The translations under genes and the position numbers were made by a program. Shown here piece after piece: positions 50,536 to 56,977 of a stretch of DNA of 64,000 nt. Positions within the stretch are counted from its first letter, which is position 1; the number at the start of each line of letters is the position of its first letter. Source of the DNA: Rhizobiaceae bacterium (lineage in GTDB: Bacteria > Pseudomonadota > Alphaproteobacteria > Rhizobiales > Rhizobiaceae); assembly GCA_029212415.1 (NCBI GenBank), contig JARGOF010000002.1, forward strand, positions 196,877-260,876. Reading direction: 5' to 3'. The notes beneath the pieces are model-generated. The model saw nothing but the letters and a program-made list of their open reading frames with translations, made no database searches and was not told the DNA's origin.

Positions 50536-51633
50536 ATGAAGGATATTGAACCGATGCCTGAAAAAACTGCGGCGCCATCTGATGGCAAGGCAGGCCTTGC
50601 GCCGCCGGCCGAGCTGAAATTTCCCCATGCCCAGCCACCTGAAAATGGCAAGGTCAAGGAAATTGCGCCGGGTATCCTGTGGCTCAGAATGCCGCTGCCG
50701 TTTCAGCTCGACCATGTGAACATCTATCTGATCCGCGATGGTGACGGCTGGGCTGTGCTGGACACCGGAATCAGCAATGACGTCAGCAAGCAGGCTTGGC
50801 AGCAATTGCTCGGCGGAGAACTTGCCGGTGAAAAACTGACGCGGGTCATCGTCACCCATTTCCATCCCGACCATATCGGTCTTGCCGGCTGGCTGTGCGC
50901 CCAGCATGATATTCCGCTGCTGACCAGCTATTCGGCCTATCTGGGGTGCCAGAACCTTTCTCTTGATCCCAAATCGCTGGAATCCAGGCAGAGTTTCGAT
51001 TTTTACATGCAGCACGGCATGAGCGAAGAGACCGCCACGCTGGTCAGCACCCGCGGTCACGAATATCTGCACCAGGTCGAACCGCTTCCCACGACCTACC
51101 TGCGTTTGCTGTTGGGCGACATGCTGACAATCGGCGACAGACGCTTCAGGGTTCTGAGCGGCGACGGCCATGCGCCCGAGCAGATCATGCTCTATTGCGA
51201 AGAGGACAAGCTGTTTTTTGCTGCCGATCAGGTGATCGCCAGGATTTCACCCAATATCAGCGTCTGGGCCGGTGAACCCAATGGTGACCCGCTGGGGCAT
51301 TATCTGCGTTCGCTTCGCTGGCTTTCCGCCGAGATGCCGGGGGATGTTCTGGTGCTGCCGGGGCATCAATTGCCCTTTTATGGGCTGCACACAAGATGCG
51401 CAGAACTGGTCAGCCATCATGAATTTCGCTGCGATCAGATCATGAGTGCTTGCGCCGAGCGACCAAGGACAGTTGCAGAACTCGTGCCCGTGCTGTTTCC
51501 GCGCCCGCTGGACCCGCACCAGATGAGTTTTGCCTTCACCGAAACGCTGGCCCATGCAAACCGGCTGGCGCGCCGCGGTGACGTGGAATGGGAAAAACAG
51601 CAAAGCAAAACGCTGTGCCGGTTGAAAGAATAG
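50536..51633 (+). CDS. Metallo-beta-lactamase fold hydrolase
   Basis: 365 aa. Zinc ligands His108, His110, Asp112, His113 in THFHPDHIG, with later ligands in SGDGHAPEQ, AADQ and PGHQLPF. The C-terminal quarter is a winged-helix-like region of the LACTB2 type (HHEFRCDQIMSACAERPRTVAEL). Such proteins include thioesterases, nucleases and glyoxalase II relatives; the exact substrate is unclear. ATG 50536 is taken; ATG 50554 is also possible. Confidence 0.85.
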   Translation: MKDIEPMPEKTAAPSDGKAGLAPPAELKFPHAQPPENGKVKEIAPGILWLRMPLPFQLDHVNIYLIRDGDGWAVLDTGISNDVSKQAWQQLLGGELAGEKLTRVIVTHFHPDHIGLAGWLCAQHDIPLLTSYSAYLGCQNLSLDPKSLESRQSFDFYMQHGMSEETATLVSTRGHEYLHQVEPLPTTYLRLLLGDMLTIGDRRFRVLSGDGHAPEQIMLYCEEDKLFFAADQVIARISPNISVWAGEPNGDPLGHYLRSLRWLSAEMPGDVLVLPGHQLPFYGLHTRCAELVSHHEFRCDQIMSACAERPRTVAELVPVLFPRPLDPHQMSFAFTETLAHANRLARRGDVEWEKQQSKTLCRLKE

Positions 51634-51743
51634 AGCCGATCCACGTCAGTCTCTCGAAATTATTGCCTGAAATAGTAGGAACAACATTAACGATCTTTAA
51701 TTATAGTTCAGGTCCACGTTGATGGTACAGGGTCACGTGTTTC

Positions 51744-52550
51744 GTGAATAGGCAGATGTTTTGCCTGATGACTGATTGGATGCCGCATATGTCAGGGAAT
51801 TTGAAGAAAGCCGCAAGGATTATGGCGGCGCTTGCCTTGCCACGGACCATCAGTGATCGGGCCAGCGCGCTCAGGGGCACGGCCTTTATGGCGCGCTCAG
51901 CCATGCGGTCCTGGTTTGGCGGGAAACAGCCCTTTGTATTGGTCAATATCGGTACCTGCGATGGCGTTCTCTACGATGATGTGACGCCCTGGCTGCACCG
52001 CATCCGCAATTCCCGCGCGGTGCTGGTTGAACCCATTCCCTATAATTATACCCGTCTTCGCAAAAATTATCCTGATGCCGACCGGCATGTCATTGAACCG
52101 GTGGTCATCACCCGCGAAGCCGGGTCGATGATGATGCGAACCTTTGACGAAACGGCACTGGAAGCAGGCACTTTGCCGATGGAATTTGTCGGTTGCTCGT
52201 CCGTCAAGGATACCAATCTGGTGTCCGGCATGGATGCCTGGGGAGAGCAGGACCCGAACTTCCAGAATTTTACCGAGCATCTCAAGGAAATAGAAGTCCG
52301 CTCCGAGCGACTGGAAACCATTTTGCAACGCAACGGCGTTGATCACATTGATGTCTTTCTCGTCGATTGCGAGGGGGCCGACTGGGAAGTCTTTGAACAG
52401 CTTGATCTTCAGCGCTGGCATCCGGCCATGATCAAGATTGAAATCGGCTCCCTGACGGCAGAAGATGTCGGCAATACCCTCCTCAAGCTCAAACGCGCAA
52501 AATACCGTATAGGCCTCAATGCAGAAGACGTCTGGGCCTTTGCTGCCTAG
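51744..52550 (+). CDS. FkbM-family methyltransferase
   Basis: About 268 aa. The SAM-binding region is FVLVNIGTCDGVLYDDV, with LVEPIPYNYTRLRKNYP as the Glu-containing second motif, and the C-terminal FLVDCEGADWEVFEQLDL typical of FkbM proteins. Family members methylate sugars or small molecules. The start is uncertain: GTG 51744, ATG 51756, 51768 or 51789 are all in frame before the conserved region. No linked biosynthetic cluster was seen, so the substrate is unknown. Confidence 0.82.
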   Translation: MNRQMFCLMTDWMPHMSGNLKKAARIMAALALPRTISDRASALRGTAFMARSAMRSWFGGKQPFVLVNIGTCDGVLYDDVTPWLHRIRNSRAVLVEPIPYNYTRLRKNYPDADRHVIEPVVITREAGSMMMRTFDETALEAGTLPMEFVGCSSVKDTNLVSGMDAWGEQDPNFQNFTEHLKEIEVRSERLETILQRNGVDHIDVFLVDCEGADWEVFEQLDLQRWHPAMIKIEIGSLTAEDVGNTLLKLKRAKYRIGLNAEDVWAFAA

Positions 52551-53076: not shown

Positions 53077-54234
53077 ATGAGTGACACGGCAGGCAATGAC
53101 GGCCTCGATTTTTATAGCCGACTTGCAGCGCAGTCGCGTTTCGATGACCTGACGCAGGGCACATCCTATACGCCGCTTCCCGATGACTGGTTCGTCGGAA
53201 CGGCCGATATTGTCGGATCCACCCAACTGATCGAGGCAGGCAAGTACAAATTGGTCAATACCGTTGGCGCAGCGGTCATTTCGGCGCAGATCAATGCGGT
53301 GCAGGGGCAGCAATTGCCCTTTGCCTTTGGTGGTGATGGCGCGGCCTTTGCCTTCTGGCCGCAGCACCTTGAAGCGGCCCGCACGGCGCTGGCGGCTGTC
53401 CGGCGTTGGGCGCTGGATGAATTCGACATTGATCTGCGGGTCGCCATTGTCTCCGTTTCGCAAATCCGTTCTGCCGGTCACAATGTCAGCGTGGCGCGTT
53501 ATCAGGCCTCGCAAGGCGCCGATTATGCAATGTTCGACGGCGGTGGTCTCTCCTGGGCCGAAGAGCAGATGAAACAGGGCCACAATGCCATTGAAGCAGC
53601 GCCCGCCGGCACCATGCCGGACCTGACGGGCCTGTCGTGTCGCTGGACGCCAATGCAGGCCAGAAACGGAAAGATTCTCTCGCTTGTCGCCCTGCCAGCC
53701 CCCGGCGCCGCGCCACAAAGAGTGGCCTCCGTGATGCATGAGATTGTCAAATGCGCAGAACGGCTGGAGCGTGGCGGCCATCCAGTGCCGCCGCAGGGGC
53801 CGGGCTATACTTGGCCACCGCAGGGACTGGACCTTGAGGCCAGGGCAACGCATGGCGACATGTCCGTCTTCAGGCGCAAGATTCAACTGCTGGGCGAGAC
53901 GCTGCTTGCCTGGTTTTTCTTTCGCACCGGCATGAGCGCCGGCGGCTTCAATCCGGTGCATTATGTGGAAACCACCGGCAGGAATGCCGATTTCCGCAAG
54001 TTTGAAGATGGCCTCAAAATGACGCTCGACTGCGATGCGCAAACACGCATTGCGCTGGAGACAATTTTGGACAATGCCCGCCGGCAGGGTGTGATTGTCT
54101 ATGGTCTGTTTGAGCAGGATGAGGCGATCATGACCTGCATCGTGCCGTCCATCACCCAGGATGATCACATCCATTTTATCGACGGCGCAGCCGGCGGTTA
54201 TGCCCGCGCTGTCGCGCAACTCAAAACGCGATAA
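53077..54234 (+). CDS. DUF3095 protein, nucleotidyl-cyclase-like
   Basis: 385 aa from ATG 53077. The N-terminal third begins DDWFVGTADIVGSTQLIEAGKY, resembling the metal-binding opening of class III adenylate cyclases, and a second conserved block is LPFAFGGDGAAFAFWPQH, like the cyclase glycine-rich turn. No transmembrane segments. The family is uncharacterised; a cyclase or cyclase-like regulatory role is an inference from fold likeness. It precedes the SBP56-ferredoxin-DUF2182 genes by about 140 bases on the same strand. Confidence 0.8.
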   Translation: MSDTAGNDGLDFYSRLAAQSRFDDLTQGTSYTPLPDDWFVGTADIVGSTQLIEAGKYKLVNTVGAAVISAQINAVQGQQLPFAFGGDGAAFAFWPQHLEAARTALAAVRRWALDEFDIDLRVAIVSVSQIRSAGHNVSVARYQASQGADYAMFDGGGLSWAEEQMKQGHNAIEAAPAGTMPDLTGLSCRWTPMQARNGKILSLVALPAPGAAPQRVASVMHEIVKCAERLERGGHPVPPQGPGYTWPPQGLDLEARATHGDMSVFRRKIQLLGETLLAWFFFRTGMSAGGFNPVHYVETTGRNADFRKFEDGLKMTLDCDAQTRIALETILDNARRQGVIVYGLFEQDEAIMTCIVPSITQDDHIHFIDGAAGGYARAVAQLKTR

Positions 54235-54377
54235 GAACCGGGCCTGCGCCCCCGATCCCGCCCCGATCCAGAAGGTGCGGATAGCTTTGCGTGTGGGACA
54301 AACCGCTTGCCACCACACATCAATCAAGCCAGACTTCCCTGCCTGACAGATACTCTGTCATCAAGGGAGGATGAATC

Positions 54378-55745
54378 ATGTCTGATACGCAAGCTGAATG
54401 CTGTACGGGACCAGGTTATGCATCGCCTCAGGAGGCCATCAGGGCGCCCCGGGAAAAACTCGTCTATACCATATGCATCTATACCGGCACCGGAGTTGAA
54501 AAGCCGGATTATCTGGCCACGATCGATGTGGACGAAGACAGCCCGACCTTTGGTCAGGTCATTGCCCGCACACATATGCCGATTGTCGGCGACGAATTGC
54601 ATCACATGGGCTGGAATGCCTGTTCATCGTGCCACTCGGACAGCGGCATGGCGCGCAAATATCTGATCATACCGGGCGTGCGCACGACAAATTTCTATAT
54701 TGTCGATACCGCCACCGATCCGCGCAACCCGACCCTGTTCAAGACCATTGACGGTGCGGAAATCAAGAAGAAGACAAATCTCTCGGCGCCCCACACGGTT
54801 CACTGCCTGGGGTCCGATATCATTGTCTCCATGCTGGGCGATGCCGATGGCAATGCGCCAGGTGGTTTCCTGCATCTCAACAAGGATTTCGAGATCATGG
54901 GACGGTGGGAAAATGATATCACGGGTATGAATTTCAACTATGATTTCTGGTATCAGCCGCGCCACAACATGATGGTGTCAACCGAATGGGCTGCGCCCAA
55001 TACATTCATGCCGGGTTTTGATCTTGAGGATGTCGGGAAAGGCAAATACGGCCAGCATATCCATTTCTGGGACTTCAAGAACAAGAGCATCACACGCACG
55101 GTCGACCTGGGCGGTGACGGCCTGATCCCGTTGGAAGTGCGCTTTCACCACAATCCCGATTCCACCCATGGCTTTGTTGGTGCGGCCCTGTCGTCCAACA
55201 TCTTTCACTGGTTCAAGGATGAAAATGGCGCGGTGCACATTGAGAAGGTCATTGATGTCGAGTCGATAGATGTCGCCGATTTTCCGGTGCCGATGCCTGG
55301 TCTCATCACCGATATTCTGGTGTCGATGGACGACAAATATCTGTATTTTTCCAACTGGCTGCATGGCGATCTCAGGCAATACGATATCAGCGACCCGTCC
55401 CATCCGGTTCTCACCGGCCAGGTCTGGATCGGCGGGCTTCTGGGCAAGGCGCCACAGGTCAATGGCCGTGCCGTGACCGGGGCGCCGCAGATGATCCAGC
55501 TGTCTCTGGACGGCAAGCGTCTCTATGTCACGACCTCGCTGTTTTCGACCTGGGACAATCAGTTCTACCCGGATATGAAACAGGCCGGCGGCGTCATGGT
55601 GCTGGTGGATTGTGACAATGAAAACGGCGGCATGGCGATCAATGAAACGTTTCTTGTTGATTTCGGCCAGGAACCCGATGGCCCGGCCCGTGCCCATGAA
55701 ACACGTTATCCCGGTGGCGATTGCTCGTCCGATATCTGGGTCTGA
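54378..55745 (+). CDS. SBP56 / selenium-binding protein family (methanethiol oxidase-like)
   Basis: 455 aa. The family signature GDELHHMGWNACSSCHSD is at residues 71-88, with the Cys82-SS-Cys85 pair and His75-His76, the residues tied to metal and thiol chemistry in this family. Members in mammals and in methylotrophic bacteria (MtoX) oxidise methanethiol to formaldehyde, H2O2 and H2S using copper. No signal peptide is visible, so this one looks cytosolic. RBS GGGAGG is strong. A 14-bp hairpin separates it from the ferredoxin gene. Confidence 0.88.
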   Translation: MSDTQAECCTGPGYASPQEAIRAPREKLVYTICIYTGTGVEKPDYLATIDVDEDSPTFGQVIARTHMPIVGDELHHMGWNACSSCHSDSGMARKYLIIPGVRTTNFYIVDTATDPRNPTLFKTIDGAEIKKKTNLSAPHTVHCLGSDIIVSMLGDADGNAPGGFLHLNKDFEIMGRWENDITGMNFNYDFWYQPRHNMMVSTEWAAPNTFMPGFDLEDVGKGKYGQHIHFWDFKNKSITRTVDLGGDGLIPLEVRFHHNPDSTHGFVGAALSSNIFHWFKDENGAVHIEKVIDVESIDVADFPVPMPGLITDILVSMDDKYLYFSNWLHGDLRQYDISDPSHPVLTGQVWIGGLLGKAPQVNGRAVTGAPQMIQLSLDGKRLYVTTSLFSTWDNQFYPDMKQAGGVMVLVDCDNENGGMAINETFLVDFGQEPDGPARAHETRYPGGDCSSDIWV

Positions 55746-55750
55746 AACCC

Positions 55751-55789
55751 TGGCGCCGCGCCGCGACCTTGTGGTGCGGTGCGGCGCCA
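55751..55789 (+). promoter_or_regulatory. Strong hairpin between SBP56 and ferredoxin genes
   Basis: TGGCGCCGCGCCGC (55751-55764) pairs with GCGGTGCGGCGCCA (55776-55789), 14 pairs with one G-U, loop of 11. It begins five bases after the SBP56 stop and has no T tract, so it may stabilise the upstream mRNA or reduce read-through rather than terminate. Confidence 0.6.
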
Positions 55790-55823
55790 CCATTGCCGTT
55801 GGTCCTCGACGGGAGGAAGCCCA

Positions 55824-56177
55824 TTGCCGCGTTTCCGCATCACCCTGAAAAACCGCAACAACCTGACACTCGAGGTTGGTGATGACGAGGCGATCATCGA
55901 CGCCGTTGAAGCGGCCGGCCATGTTCTGCCCATCGGTTGCCGCTATGGCGGCTGCATCACCTGCGCCGCCAGGCTGATCGAAGGCAGCGTTCGCCAGCCC
56001 AATGGAACGGCGCTGAACAAACGCCAGTCGCAACTGGGCTATGTGCTGCTGTGCGTGGCGCGGCCAAAAACAGATTGTGTGCTGGAGGTCGGCGTGGAAA
56101 GTCACGACCAGCTCTACGTCAATCCGTTTGCCAGCCCGGGAAAATTGCCGCTTCCTGCAGGACCCGGAAAAGCATGA
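55824..56177 (+). CDS. [2Fe-2S] ferredoxin, plant type
   Basis: 117 aa from TTG 55824, which follows GGGAGGAAG at 55811-55819. The cluster ligands are C-x4-C-x2-C in CRYGGCITC and a later Cys in LLCVA. The ferredoxin fold opening FRITLKNRNNLTLEVGDDEAIIDA is clear. It probably passes electrons to or from a partner of the SBP56 enzyme. Its stop overlaps the DUF2182 start by ATGA. Longer starts near 55779 would run through the hairpin and are rejected. Confidence 0.88.
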   Translation: MPRFRITLKNRNNLTLEVGDDEAIIDAVEAAGHVLPIGCRYGGCITCAARLIEGSVRQPNGTALNKRQSQLGYVLLCVARPKTDCVLEVGVESHDQLYVNPFASPGKLPLPAGPGKA

Positions 56178-56977
56178 GCAAGGGCTTGCCGGGACAGGCG
56201 CCGATGCCTTGGGCATTCCAGCCCGCCCGCGCGCTTTTGATCCTTTTGGTCGCGACCGGCTGGCTCTTCATGACGATCCAGTCTCTGGAACTGTCGATGC
56301 GCGGCACTGTTGCTGATGCGGGCCCGGGCATGGCGCTTTTTGCGTTCCTCACGCCCTATTTTTCCGGGTTGCAGGTGCTCTATTCGATTTGCGTCACCCA
56401 GTCGGTTGACTGGGGTATTGTTGATTTTGCCAAGGCGCTGGCCATGTGGCAGGCCATGGTGCTGGCGATGATGGTGCCGACGCTCCTGCCGGGCTTTCAG
56501 CGGCAGCAACGGCCCTTTGGTCCGGCACTGCGCTTCGTCACCTTCTACCTGCTGGCATGGCTGGGGTTCTGTCTTGTGGCGGTCGGCCTGCAATGGCTGC
56601 TGCGATCCGCACAGATTCTGGATGCCCATATGGTCTCAACAGAGCGCGTGCTGAACGCTGCCGTGCTGATATTGGCCGGGGTCTTTCAACTGACCGGCAG
56701 CAAGCGCCGGCACCTTACAGCCTGTCAAAGGTCCCTCCATGGAGCGCCAGGGGATAGGTCGGCTGTGCGGTCCGGTTGGATCCACGGCGTGCAATGCGTC
56801 AAATGCTGCTGGCCGCTCATGCTGACAATGTTTGTATTCGGTCTGATGAACCTGTTGGCCATGGCCGTTTTGACAGGGCTGATCGTGATCGAGAAGACGC
56901 TGACTGATGCCGGTTGGGCGGTCAAATCTTCCGGCATCGCCTTCATTTTGGCAGGTGTGGTGGTGGCCCTGATTTGA
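56174..56977 (+). CDS. DUF2182 membrane protein, probable metal-binding
   Basis: 267 aa from ATG 56174. About six to seven membrane helices; the diagnostic DUF2182 features are WQAMVLAMMVPTLLP and a C-terminal FQLTGSKRRHLTAC followed by QCVKCCWPLM, with cysteines positioned as in the family's predicted metal site. DUF2182 members are described as metal-binding integral membrane proteins, and no transport activity is proven. Coupled by four bases to the ferredoxin, so ferredoxin and DUF2182 protein likely act together. Confidence 0.82.
   Translation: MSKGLPGQAPMPWAFQPARALLILLVATGWLFMTIQSLELSMRGTVADAGPGMALFAFLTPYFSGLQVLYSICVTQSVDWGIVDFAKALAMWQAMVLAMMVPTLLPGFQRQQRPFGPALRFVTFYLLAWLGFCLVAVGLQWLLRSAQILDAHMVSTERVLNAAVLILAGVFQLTGSKRRHLTACQRSLHGAPGDRSAVRSGWIHGVQCVKCCWPLMLTMFVFGLMNLLAMAVLTGLIVIEKTLTDAGWAVKSSGIAFILAGVVVALI

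Follow-up and report, generated by a model that had tools for sequence, protein, structure and literature searches.

Gene Organization of the Locus

We analyzed a 64,000-nucleotide stretch of the genome of a Rhizobiaceae bacterium (the window; GenBank assembly GCA_029212415.1, contig JARGOF010000002.1, positions 196,877 to 260,876), in which genes for an SBP56-family protein, a plant-type [2Fe-2S] ferredoxin, and a PpoB2-family membrane protein follow one another (Table 1). An earlier note, made from the sequence alone, had singled out these genes together with the upstream gene for a DUF3095 protein. All four families are present there, intact and on the same strand, as judged by Pfam matches; the proposed ATGA coupling corresponds to an overlap of the ferredoxin stop and the PpoB2 start at 56174-56177, and the CSSC/HH site of the SBP56 protein is indeed intact (H75, H76, C82, and C85). 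The conserved unit is three genes, those for SBP56, the [2Fe-2S] ferredoxin, and PpoB2, the third of which varies among relatives. We propose that the three genes probably constitute a cytosolic copper-dependent methanethiol oxidase system that is loaded by PpoB2 and has its own dedicated ferredoxin.

Table 1. Coordinates of the genes and features at the SBP56 locus (positions in the window)
Feature	Position	Strand	Evidence
SBP56-family protein, 455 aa, predicted copper methanethiol (thiol) oxidase	54378-55745	+	PF05694, 717 bits (cut-off 34; residues 8-455 covered)
Shine-Dalgarno-like GGGAGGAAG, 5' of ferredoxin TTG start	55811-55819	+	Read from sequence
Plant-type [2Fe-2S] ferredoxin, 117 aa, TTG start at 55824	55824-56177	+	PF00111 (Fer2 domain), 53.4 bits (cut-off 21)
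Codons of ferredoxin tail ESHDQLYVNPF (residues 92-102), possible docking motif	56097-56129	+	Conservation, 91 aligned rows
Membrane protein of the PpoB2 family (COG5486; formerly DUF2182), 267 aa, predicted to chaperone or transfer copper	56174-56977	+	PF09948, 152.5 bits (cut-off 28.7)
DUF3095 protein	53077-54234	+	PF11294, 450.5 bits

Three samples underlie the counts given below. The 80 related loci (L numbers) represent the top scores among at least 591 relatives found with the window SBP56 as query, share at least 71% SBP56 identity with it, and are not a random selection. The order sample comprises 297 genomes of the window's order (genomes carry G numbers), of which 44 carry SBP56 and 19 have SBP56 of the window's clade (69-100% identity). 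The class sample of 385 genomes contains 29 further SBP56 carriers, eight with the window's clade (67-82% identity) and 21 others, 12 of which were placed by 39-43% sequence identity and nine by a low family score alone. Neighboring genes were detected with profiles built from the window clade's own neighbors; the E-value limit was 1e-6 for these loci and for 21 control loci and 1e-8 for 12 additional control loci, some contigs being short.

Active Site and Phylogenetic Placement of the SBP56 Protein

The SBP56 protein of the window has a solved relative, 2ECE (E = 2.5e-120), and has the residues on which the activity of animal thiol oxidases depends. Mutation of residues H73, H74, H137, H140, D189, and E252 nearly abolished the activity of SELENBP1 and Caenorhabditis elegans SEMO-1 (PMC10362175); the corresponding H75, H76, H139, H142, D189, and E253 are all present in the window protein, as matched by motif position with the human protein unaligned, and are kept throughout its clade (102/102 rows, a count that includes the window and some duplicates). 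SELENBP1 is a cytosolic methanethiol/thiol oxidase (PMC10362175), and the resemblance of SELENBP1 and SEMO-1 to the window SBP56 extends to the C80/C83/C141 equivalents and to the cytosolic location, predicted for the window protein from an N-terminus in which no hydrophobic stretch is visible by eye. A predicted cytoplasmic methanethiol oxidase (MTO) has also been reported for Methylacidiphilum (PMC9003020).

Bacterial cluster 1 MTOs carry three conserved cysteine motifs and degrade methanethiol to sulfane sulfur (PMC10936201). The same motifs (GWNACS, HTV(I)HC, and GGDCS(T)) are found in the window SBP56 with C82, C143, and C449, of which the first two occur in 102/102 clade rows and the third in 96/102. 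Among the cluster 1 enzymes of Rhodobacteraceae, RdMTO and RlMTO, the tested RdMTO cysteines are C82/C143/C448 (PMC10936201), within one residue of the window numbering; seven of the nine rows numbered in the window branch have the RdMTO numbering, and two (L089 and L094) have C449 as in the window. We infer that the window SBP56 groups with RdMTO, an enzyme known here by its published residue numbering. The RlMTO cysteines (C76/C140/C456; PMC10936201) are numbered in a way that resembles a ferredoxin-less sister clade (C77/C142/C456 in L054).

MtoX of Hyphomicrobium sp. VS (PMC5739008) likewise belongs to the SBP56 family and has a copper-chaperone gene nearby, and the MtoX-like rows (n = 6) also keep H75, H76, H139, D189, E253, and W231. 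In contrast to MtoX, the window SBP56 shows by eye no signal peptide, carries cysteines absent from the MtoX-like rows, and scores 154.1 bits against a cut-off of 650 with the MtoX equivalog model NF052453. The partners differ as well, as the earlier note had pointed out: the MauG neighbor of MtoX is absent from the window, and Fer2 and PpoB2 genes are found there, the latter instead of SCO1/SenC.

The SBP56 tree comprises 131 rows and was built by a quick method with no bootstrap and with a long-branch warning; the fragments L058, L069, and L098 were omitted, and L070 was too short. It separates six MtoX-like rows, a ferredoxin-less sister clade of 21 rows (including L173 from Marinovum), and a ferredoxin-partnered clade of 102 rows, which splits into a branch of 48 rows, 46 of them with a gene for a CoA-binding protein, and the remaining 54 rows. 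The SBP56 and ferredoxin alignments contain duplicate fetches of one gene (e.g., L036 = L148), and L050 is the window itself.

A Tailed Ferredoxin Restricted to One SBP56 Clade

The window ferredoxin has the domain and the four cluster cysteines in common with plant-type [2Fe-2S] ferredoxins (e.g., 3p63 and 1rfk), and solved ferredoxins match it with E-values down to 3.9e-22; with the TIGR02008 subfamily model it scores 69.6 bits, below the cut-off of 81.15. The cysteines (C39, C44, C47, and C77; motif CX4CX2CX29C) are at least 99% conserved across 91 aligned ferredoxin rows, in which the cluster region YGGCITCAA and a C-terminal segment, VGVESHDxLYxNPF, are near-invariant. This conserved tail (GVESHDxLYxNPF) is an addition relative to plant-type ferredoxins, and in the order and class samples strong matches to the tailed form are confined to genomes that carry the window's SBP56 clade. 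In an AlphaFold2 model, ten-residue confidence means are 77-94 in the body of the protein and 48-58 in the tail. High conservation combined with low model confidence suggests that the tail peptide acquires its fold on a partner. On the SBP56 side, M152, H264, H277, H329, W350, C412, and M419 are kept in at least 95% of 105 ferredoxin-partnered rows and are absent from the 21 sister-clade rows, and these residues are candidates for the ferredoxin interface.

In 71 of the 80 related loci, the ferredoxin gene lies downstream of SBP56 on the same strand, either directly or past the gene for the CoA-binding protein. Four of the nine loci without it are interrupted by contig ends: in L088, L115, and L144 the sequence stops no more than 135 bases from SBP56, and L158 ends right past the CoA-binding gene. 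The earlier note had suggested that a cytosolic SBP56 works with an electron carrier of its own and a Cys-rich membrane partner, and recurrence of the arrangement supports this (ferredoxin in 71/80 loci, PpoB2 in 12/80). The note had also asked whether strains that keep SBP56 lose the ferredoxin and DUF2182 together; here the two behave differently, DUF2182 being mostly gone (68/80) and the ferredoxin rarely so (9/80).

We then scored the order sample with a profile of the tailed ferredoxin, using at most 15 first-look candidates per genome, so that a weak match could escape. This gave 20 matches at 163-195 bits, with the next best at 69 bits or less. All 20 fall in 18 of the 19 genomes with the window's SBP56 clade; in the exception, G114, the contig breaks off at the SBP56 gene. 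The 278 genomes without this clade, including 25 with another SBP56 match, gave no such match (Fisher p = 6e-28, in a test that ignores shared ancestry). The class sample gave the same picture: the tailed ferredoxin is present in seven of eight carriers of the window's clade, the miss (G642) being cut by a contig end, and in none of the 21 others (Fisher p = 5e-6, again ignoring shared ancestry). In both samples, the tailed ferredoxin is specific to genomes with the window's SBP56 clade. In G018 (L177), one SBP56 gene has no adjacent ferredoxin, and a tailed ferredoxin is encoded about 8 kb away on the opposite strand (G018:C82:23170-23487).

The Variable Third Gene

Pfam family PF09948, formerly DUF2182, is now named 'PpoB2, Copper chaperone', and annotations reading 'DUF2182 domain-containing protein' sit under PpoB2 matches. 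PpoB2 of Marinomonas mediterranea takes part in copper transfer to its operon mate, the tyrosinase PpoB1, and was the first COG5486 protein to be given a role (PMC2855505). The window protein belongs to the same Pfam family and likewise shares an operon with a (predicted) copper oxidase; the Marinomonas client is a tyrosinase, and the window protein is a divergent member, with about 153 bits vs. more than 200 for many members in the order sample. It has conserved Met and Cys positions, and its AlphaFold2 model is almost wholly helical (mean pLDDT 80); a fold search with it yielded nothing at E <= 0.001 and was uninformative.

Beside the SBP56-ferredoxin pair, PpoB2 is encoded in 12 of the 80 loci (10 intact) and the CoA-binding protein (PF13380) in 32, never both. 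The PpoB2 counts were obtained with a profile freed of an over-extended reading frame that overlaps the ferredoxin gene in another frame; L103 and L116 are included although PpoB2 is in pieces there, and L099, with an E-value of 4e-5 at first and 0.04 with the rebuilt profile, was dropped. The broken genes (L103 2983-3612 and L116 8588-9339) lie next to intact SBP56 and ferredoxin genes and reflect either decay or assembly error. Within the 54-row group, PpoB2 is patchy, with eight changes on the tree, five of them forced by starred branches. The small CoA-binding protein replaces PpoB2 in the other branch of the clade (L118-L159). In L123, a SCO1/SenC gene directly follows the ferredoxin; a single-sequence search revealed no further SCO1 in the loci. 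The idea that PpoB2 generally accompanies SBP56 was rejected: in the order sample, PF09948 is present in 122/297 genomes (with no more than 10 first-look candidates scored per genome, so that a weak match could escape), but of the 44 SBP56 carriers just one, the window's genome, has it next to SBP56, by positions read by eye.

PpoB2 nevertheless recurs near SBP56 in several arrangements, which supports a role in copper delivery without proving it. A plasmid of Paracoccus seriniphilus has the window's gene order, including the four-base overlap, with an S-(hydroxymethyl)glutathione dehydrogenase gene two genes farther along, on the opposite strand. The order in G312 is PpoB2 (partial match)-DUF1326-CoA ligase-SBP56-ferredoxin, and a Marinovum algicola run reads PpoB2-DUF1326-CoA ligase-DmdA-alcohol dehydrogenase-SBP56, the last from the sister clade. 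The Marinovum demethylase of dimethylsulfoniopropionate (DMSP) scores 681 bits (cut-off 410), and the record labels the PpoB2 protein 'Transmembrane protein involved in DMSP breakdown'. On this plasmid, the PpoB2-family and DUF1326 genes (L173 4729-6120) head the DMSP demethylation cluster; DUF1326 is also found near SBP56 in L031 and L181. DUF1326 may be a further copper-handling partner. We found no open-access paper on DUF2182 by name, nor one on DUF1326 with DMSP.

Neighboring Genes and the Probable Substrate

The genes around SBP56 in related genomes point to its substrate. At least one gene for class III alcohol dehydrogenase (FrmA), an SQR-like protein, a persulfide-dioxygenase-like protein, or rhodanese lies within 6 kb of SBP56 in 22/80 loci vs. 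0/33 sister-clade loci. FrmA was found in 10/80 loci (representative above the cut-off), the SQR-like protein in 9/80 (representative 200 bits, cut-off 525), the persulfide-dioxygenase-like protein in 9/80 (representative 395 bits; cut-off of the two-domain model 625), and rhodanese in 8/80. An IclR regulator gene is near SBP56 in 21/80 loci; one is also found upstream of mtoX in Ruegeria pomeroyi (PMC5739008). The six MtoX-like loci include one with FrmA, one with a persulfide-dioxygenase-like gene, and three with IclR.

Links to DMSP demethylation recur in the clade. On a plasmid of Phaeobacter inhibens, a divergent IclR gene is followed by the run SBP56-ferredoxin-CoA-binding-rhodanese-persulfide-dioxygenase-like-enoyl-CoA hydratase-acyl-CoA synthetase-DMSP-demethylase-like, the last protein scoring 377 bits, under the cut-off of 410. 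Relatives of DMSP demethylase (E-values from 8e-138 to 1e-86) are encoded within 5 kb in L124, L137, L154, L049, L046, L036 (= L148), and L171, and weaker members of the wider family (1e-34 to 1e-32) in L145, L048, and L039. Since these neighbors handle formaldehyde and sulfide or sulfane sulfur, which are the reported products of methanethiol oxidation, we infer methanethiol as the substrate of SBP56.

Alternatively, SBP56 could act on another thiol, a selenol, or a persulfide, with the neighbors serving general sulfur metabolism. SELENBP1 accepts several alkyl thiols (PMC10362175), and the methanethiol-related neighbors are in a minority (22/80 loci); however, the motifs are shared with cluster 1 enzymes, which degrade methanethiol (PMC10936201), and the DMSP-demethylase and formaldehyde-dehydrogenase genes beside the clade fit this substrate, so we regard a different one as improbable.

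DUF3095 and Other Flanking Genes

The earlier note had counted DUF3095 as the fourth member of the unit, and its gene does lie on the same strand, ending 143 bp upstream of SBP56, as it does in L081. Among the loci examined, this adjacency is confined to the window and L081, in which SBP56 is 100% identical, and is missing from L082 (90%); among the 80 related loci DUF3095 adjoins SBP56 in one, and as a member of the unit it was rejected on this count. DUF3095 is encoded in 19 of the 27 SBP56 genomes searched and is next to SBP56 only in the window's own, the next nearest distance being about 17 kb (G081). DUF3095 is a bystander, and a joint function of all four genes is very hard to credit. 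The window's genome has a second, near-full-length DUF3095 paralog (G000:C33).

By Pfam matches, the unit is flanked downstream of Fer2 and PpoB2 by an M42 peptidase gene on the opposite strand and upstream by the genes for DUF3095 and an FkbM methyltransferase. The region 50536-52550 encodes a metallo-beta-lactamase-fold protein (PF00753 with PF21221) and the FkbM methyltransferase, with no obvious link to sulfur metabolism. A promoter scan found none, and the terminator matches (six vs. a mean of 4.1 in shuffles) were not used.

Proposed Mechanism and Alternative Explanations

In the proposed cytosolic oxidase system, SBP56 would use O2 to oxidize methanethiol, derived from DMSP demethylation or methionine breakdown, and would release formaldehyde together with sulfide or sulfane sulfur. 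PpoB2 would act as an inner-membrane copper-transfer protein that loads copper into SBP56, the role of SCO1/SenC beside periplasmic MtoX. The ferredoxin would be a dedicated one-electron partner that docks via the conserved tail at its C-terminus and reduces the copper site or holds it in the reduced state. It may do so in each catalytic cycle, in which case the reaction would be a monooxygenation that yields no H2O2, or only while copper is being loaded. The order of the genes, their intact sites, the conserved pairing, the clade specificity of the ferredoxin, and the neighbor genes of relatives are observed; the substrate, copper delivery, membrane location, the direction of electron flow, and tail docking are what these observations lead us to expect.

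Several points weigh against this proposal. Activity, copper content, and electron transfer of these proteins are predictions. No gene for sulfur or formaldehyde metabolism adjoins the unit in the window. Elsewhere in its genome, other contigs encode FrmA (608 bits) and two persulfide-dioxygenase-like proteins (393 and 372 bits, under the cut-off), but such genes are common in bacteria and thus lend weak support. The diagnostic neighbors occur at under a third of the loci and also beside MtoX-like genes, and therefore mark the substrate rather than the ferredoxin clade. PpoB2 is not beside SBP56 in 68 of the 80 related loci or in the 43 other SBP56 genomes of the order sample, and so it is not essential to the clade. 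Five loci (L109, L113, L121, L141, and L142) gave no ferredoxin in tblastn searches with 16 ferredoxin queries despite ample sequence. Finally, the assays of cluster 1 and human enzymes are silent on ferredoxin, which indicates that it is not strictly required in vitro.

In an alternative, the ferredoxin and PpoB2 serve maturation only and have no role in turnover. The ferredoxin would then either supply Cu(I) for insertion by reducing Cu(II) or drive the formation of a tryptophan cofactor derived from the protein itself, as has been proposed for MauG in MtoX loci (PMC5739008). MtoX loci do couple the enzyme with the presumed maturation genes for SCO1/SenC and MauG (PMC5739008), PpoB2 and once SCO1 adjoin the ferredoxin, and published assays of the SBP56 family do not mention a ferredoxin. 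However, 58 of the 67 loci without PpoB2 or SCO1 beside SBP56 still have the ferredoxin; the sister clade has the metal-site residues and yet no such ferredoxin (0/21); and of the two tryptophans that the cofactor needs, just W231 is conserved across the three clades (90% in the alignment). A role in maturation alone is rather unlikely, although it is a stronger contender than a different substrate.

A more specific version of the chemistry is somewhat easier to entertain, and we put it forward tentatively: the SBP56 clade may be a reductant-driven copper monooxygenase (CH3SH + O2 + 2e- + 2H+ -> HCHO + H2S + H2O) with a private ferredoxin that docks via the ESHDxLYxNPF tail. Such chemistry resembles that of the copper formylglycine-generating enzyme. 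We found no open-access paper naming both SELENBP1 and formylglycine. If the monooxygenase reaction is true, enzymes assayed in the absence of their electron donor would run an abortive reaction, which could explain the disagreement over H2O2 and over H2S vs. S0: the products were reported as H2S and H2O2 in PMC5739008 and PMC10362175, and as sulfane sulfur without H2O2 in PMC10936201.

Relation to Known Systems and Significance

Within the open-access full-text literature, we found no description of an SBP56-ferredoxin pair or of SBP56 with PpoB2. By term search, the word 'ferredoxin' is absent from the texts of PMC5739008, PMC10936201, PMC7157515, PMC12262181, and PMC10362175; that of PMC10936201, on the cluster 1 MTOs, also has no mention of gene clusters. 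The passages of PMC8371827, PMC10974252, PMC8498564, PMC10433728, and PMC10199032 contain no SBP56-ferredoxin link. An earlier iron-sulfur hint comes from Aminobacter lissarensis CC495, in which a PaaE-like Fe-S flavoprotein with a 2Fe-2S ferredoxin-type domain was suggested as the source of methanethiol oxidase activity (PMC3621897); that protein differs from the window ferredoxin in being a reductase with FAD and 2Fe-2S domains, and a term search of the text found no mention of selenium binding. Of the module that, according to the earlier note, could be undescribed, the new part, as far as these searches show, is the SBP56-ferredoxin partnership; thiol oxidation by such SBP56 proteins was already known from SBP56-family oxidases outside MtoX, and the DUF2182 relative PpoB2 had been characterized.

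Methanethiol is a malodorous and toxic sulfur gas; its oxidation forms part of the sulfur cycle in the sea, and there is disagreement over what the enzyme produces. With a clade-specific ferredoxin that is rarely apart from the enzyme, this dispute becomes directly testable. The tailed ferredoxin would also provide a metagenome marker for this type of methanethiol oxidation, and the PpoB2/COG5486 family of copper chaperones gains a probable second client.

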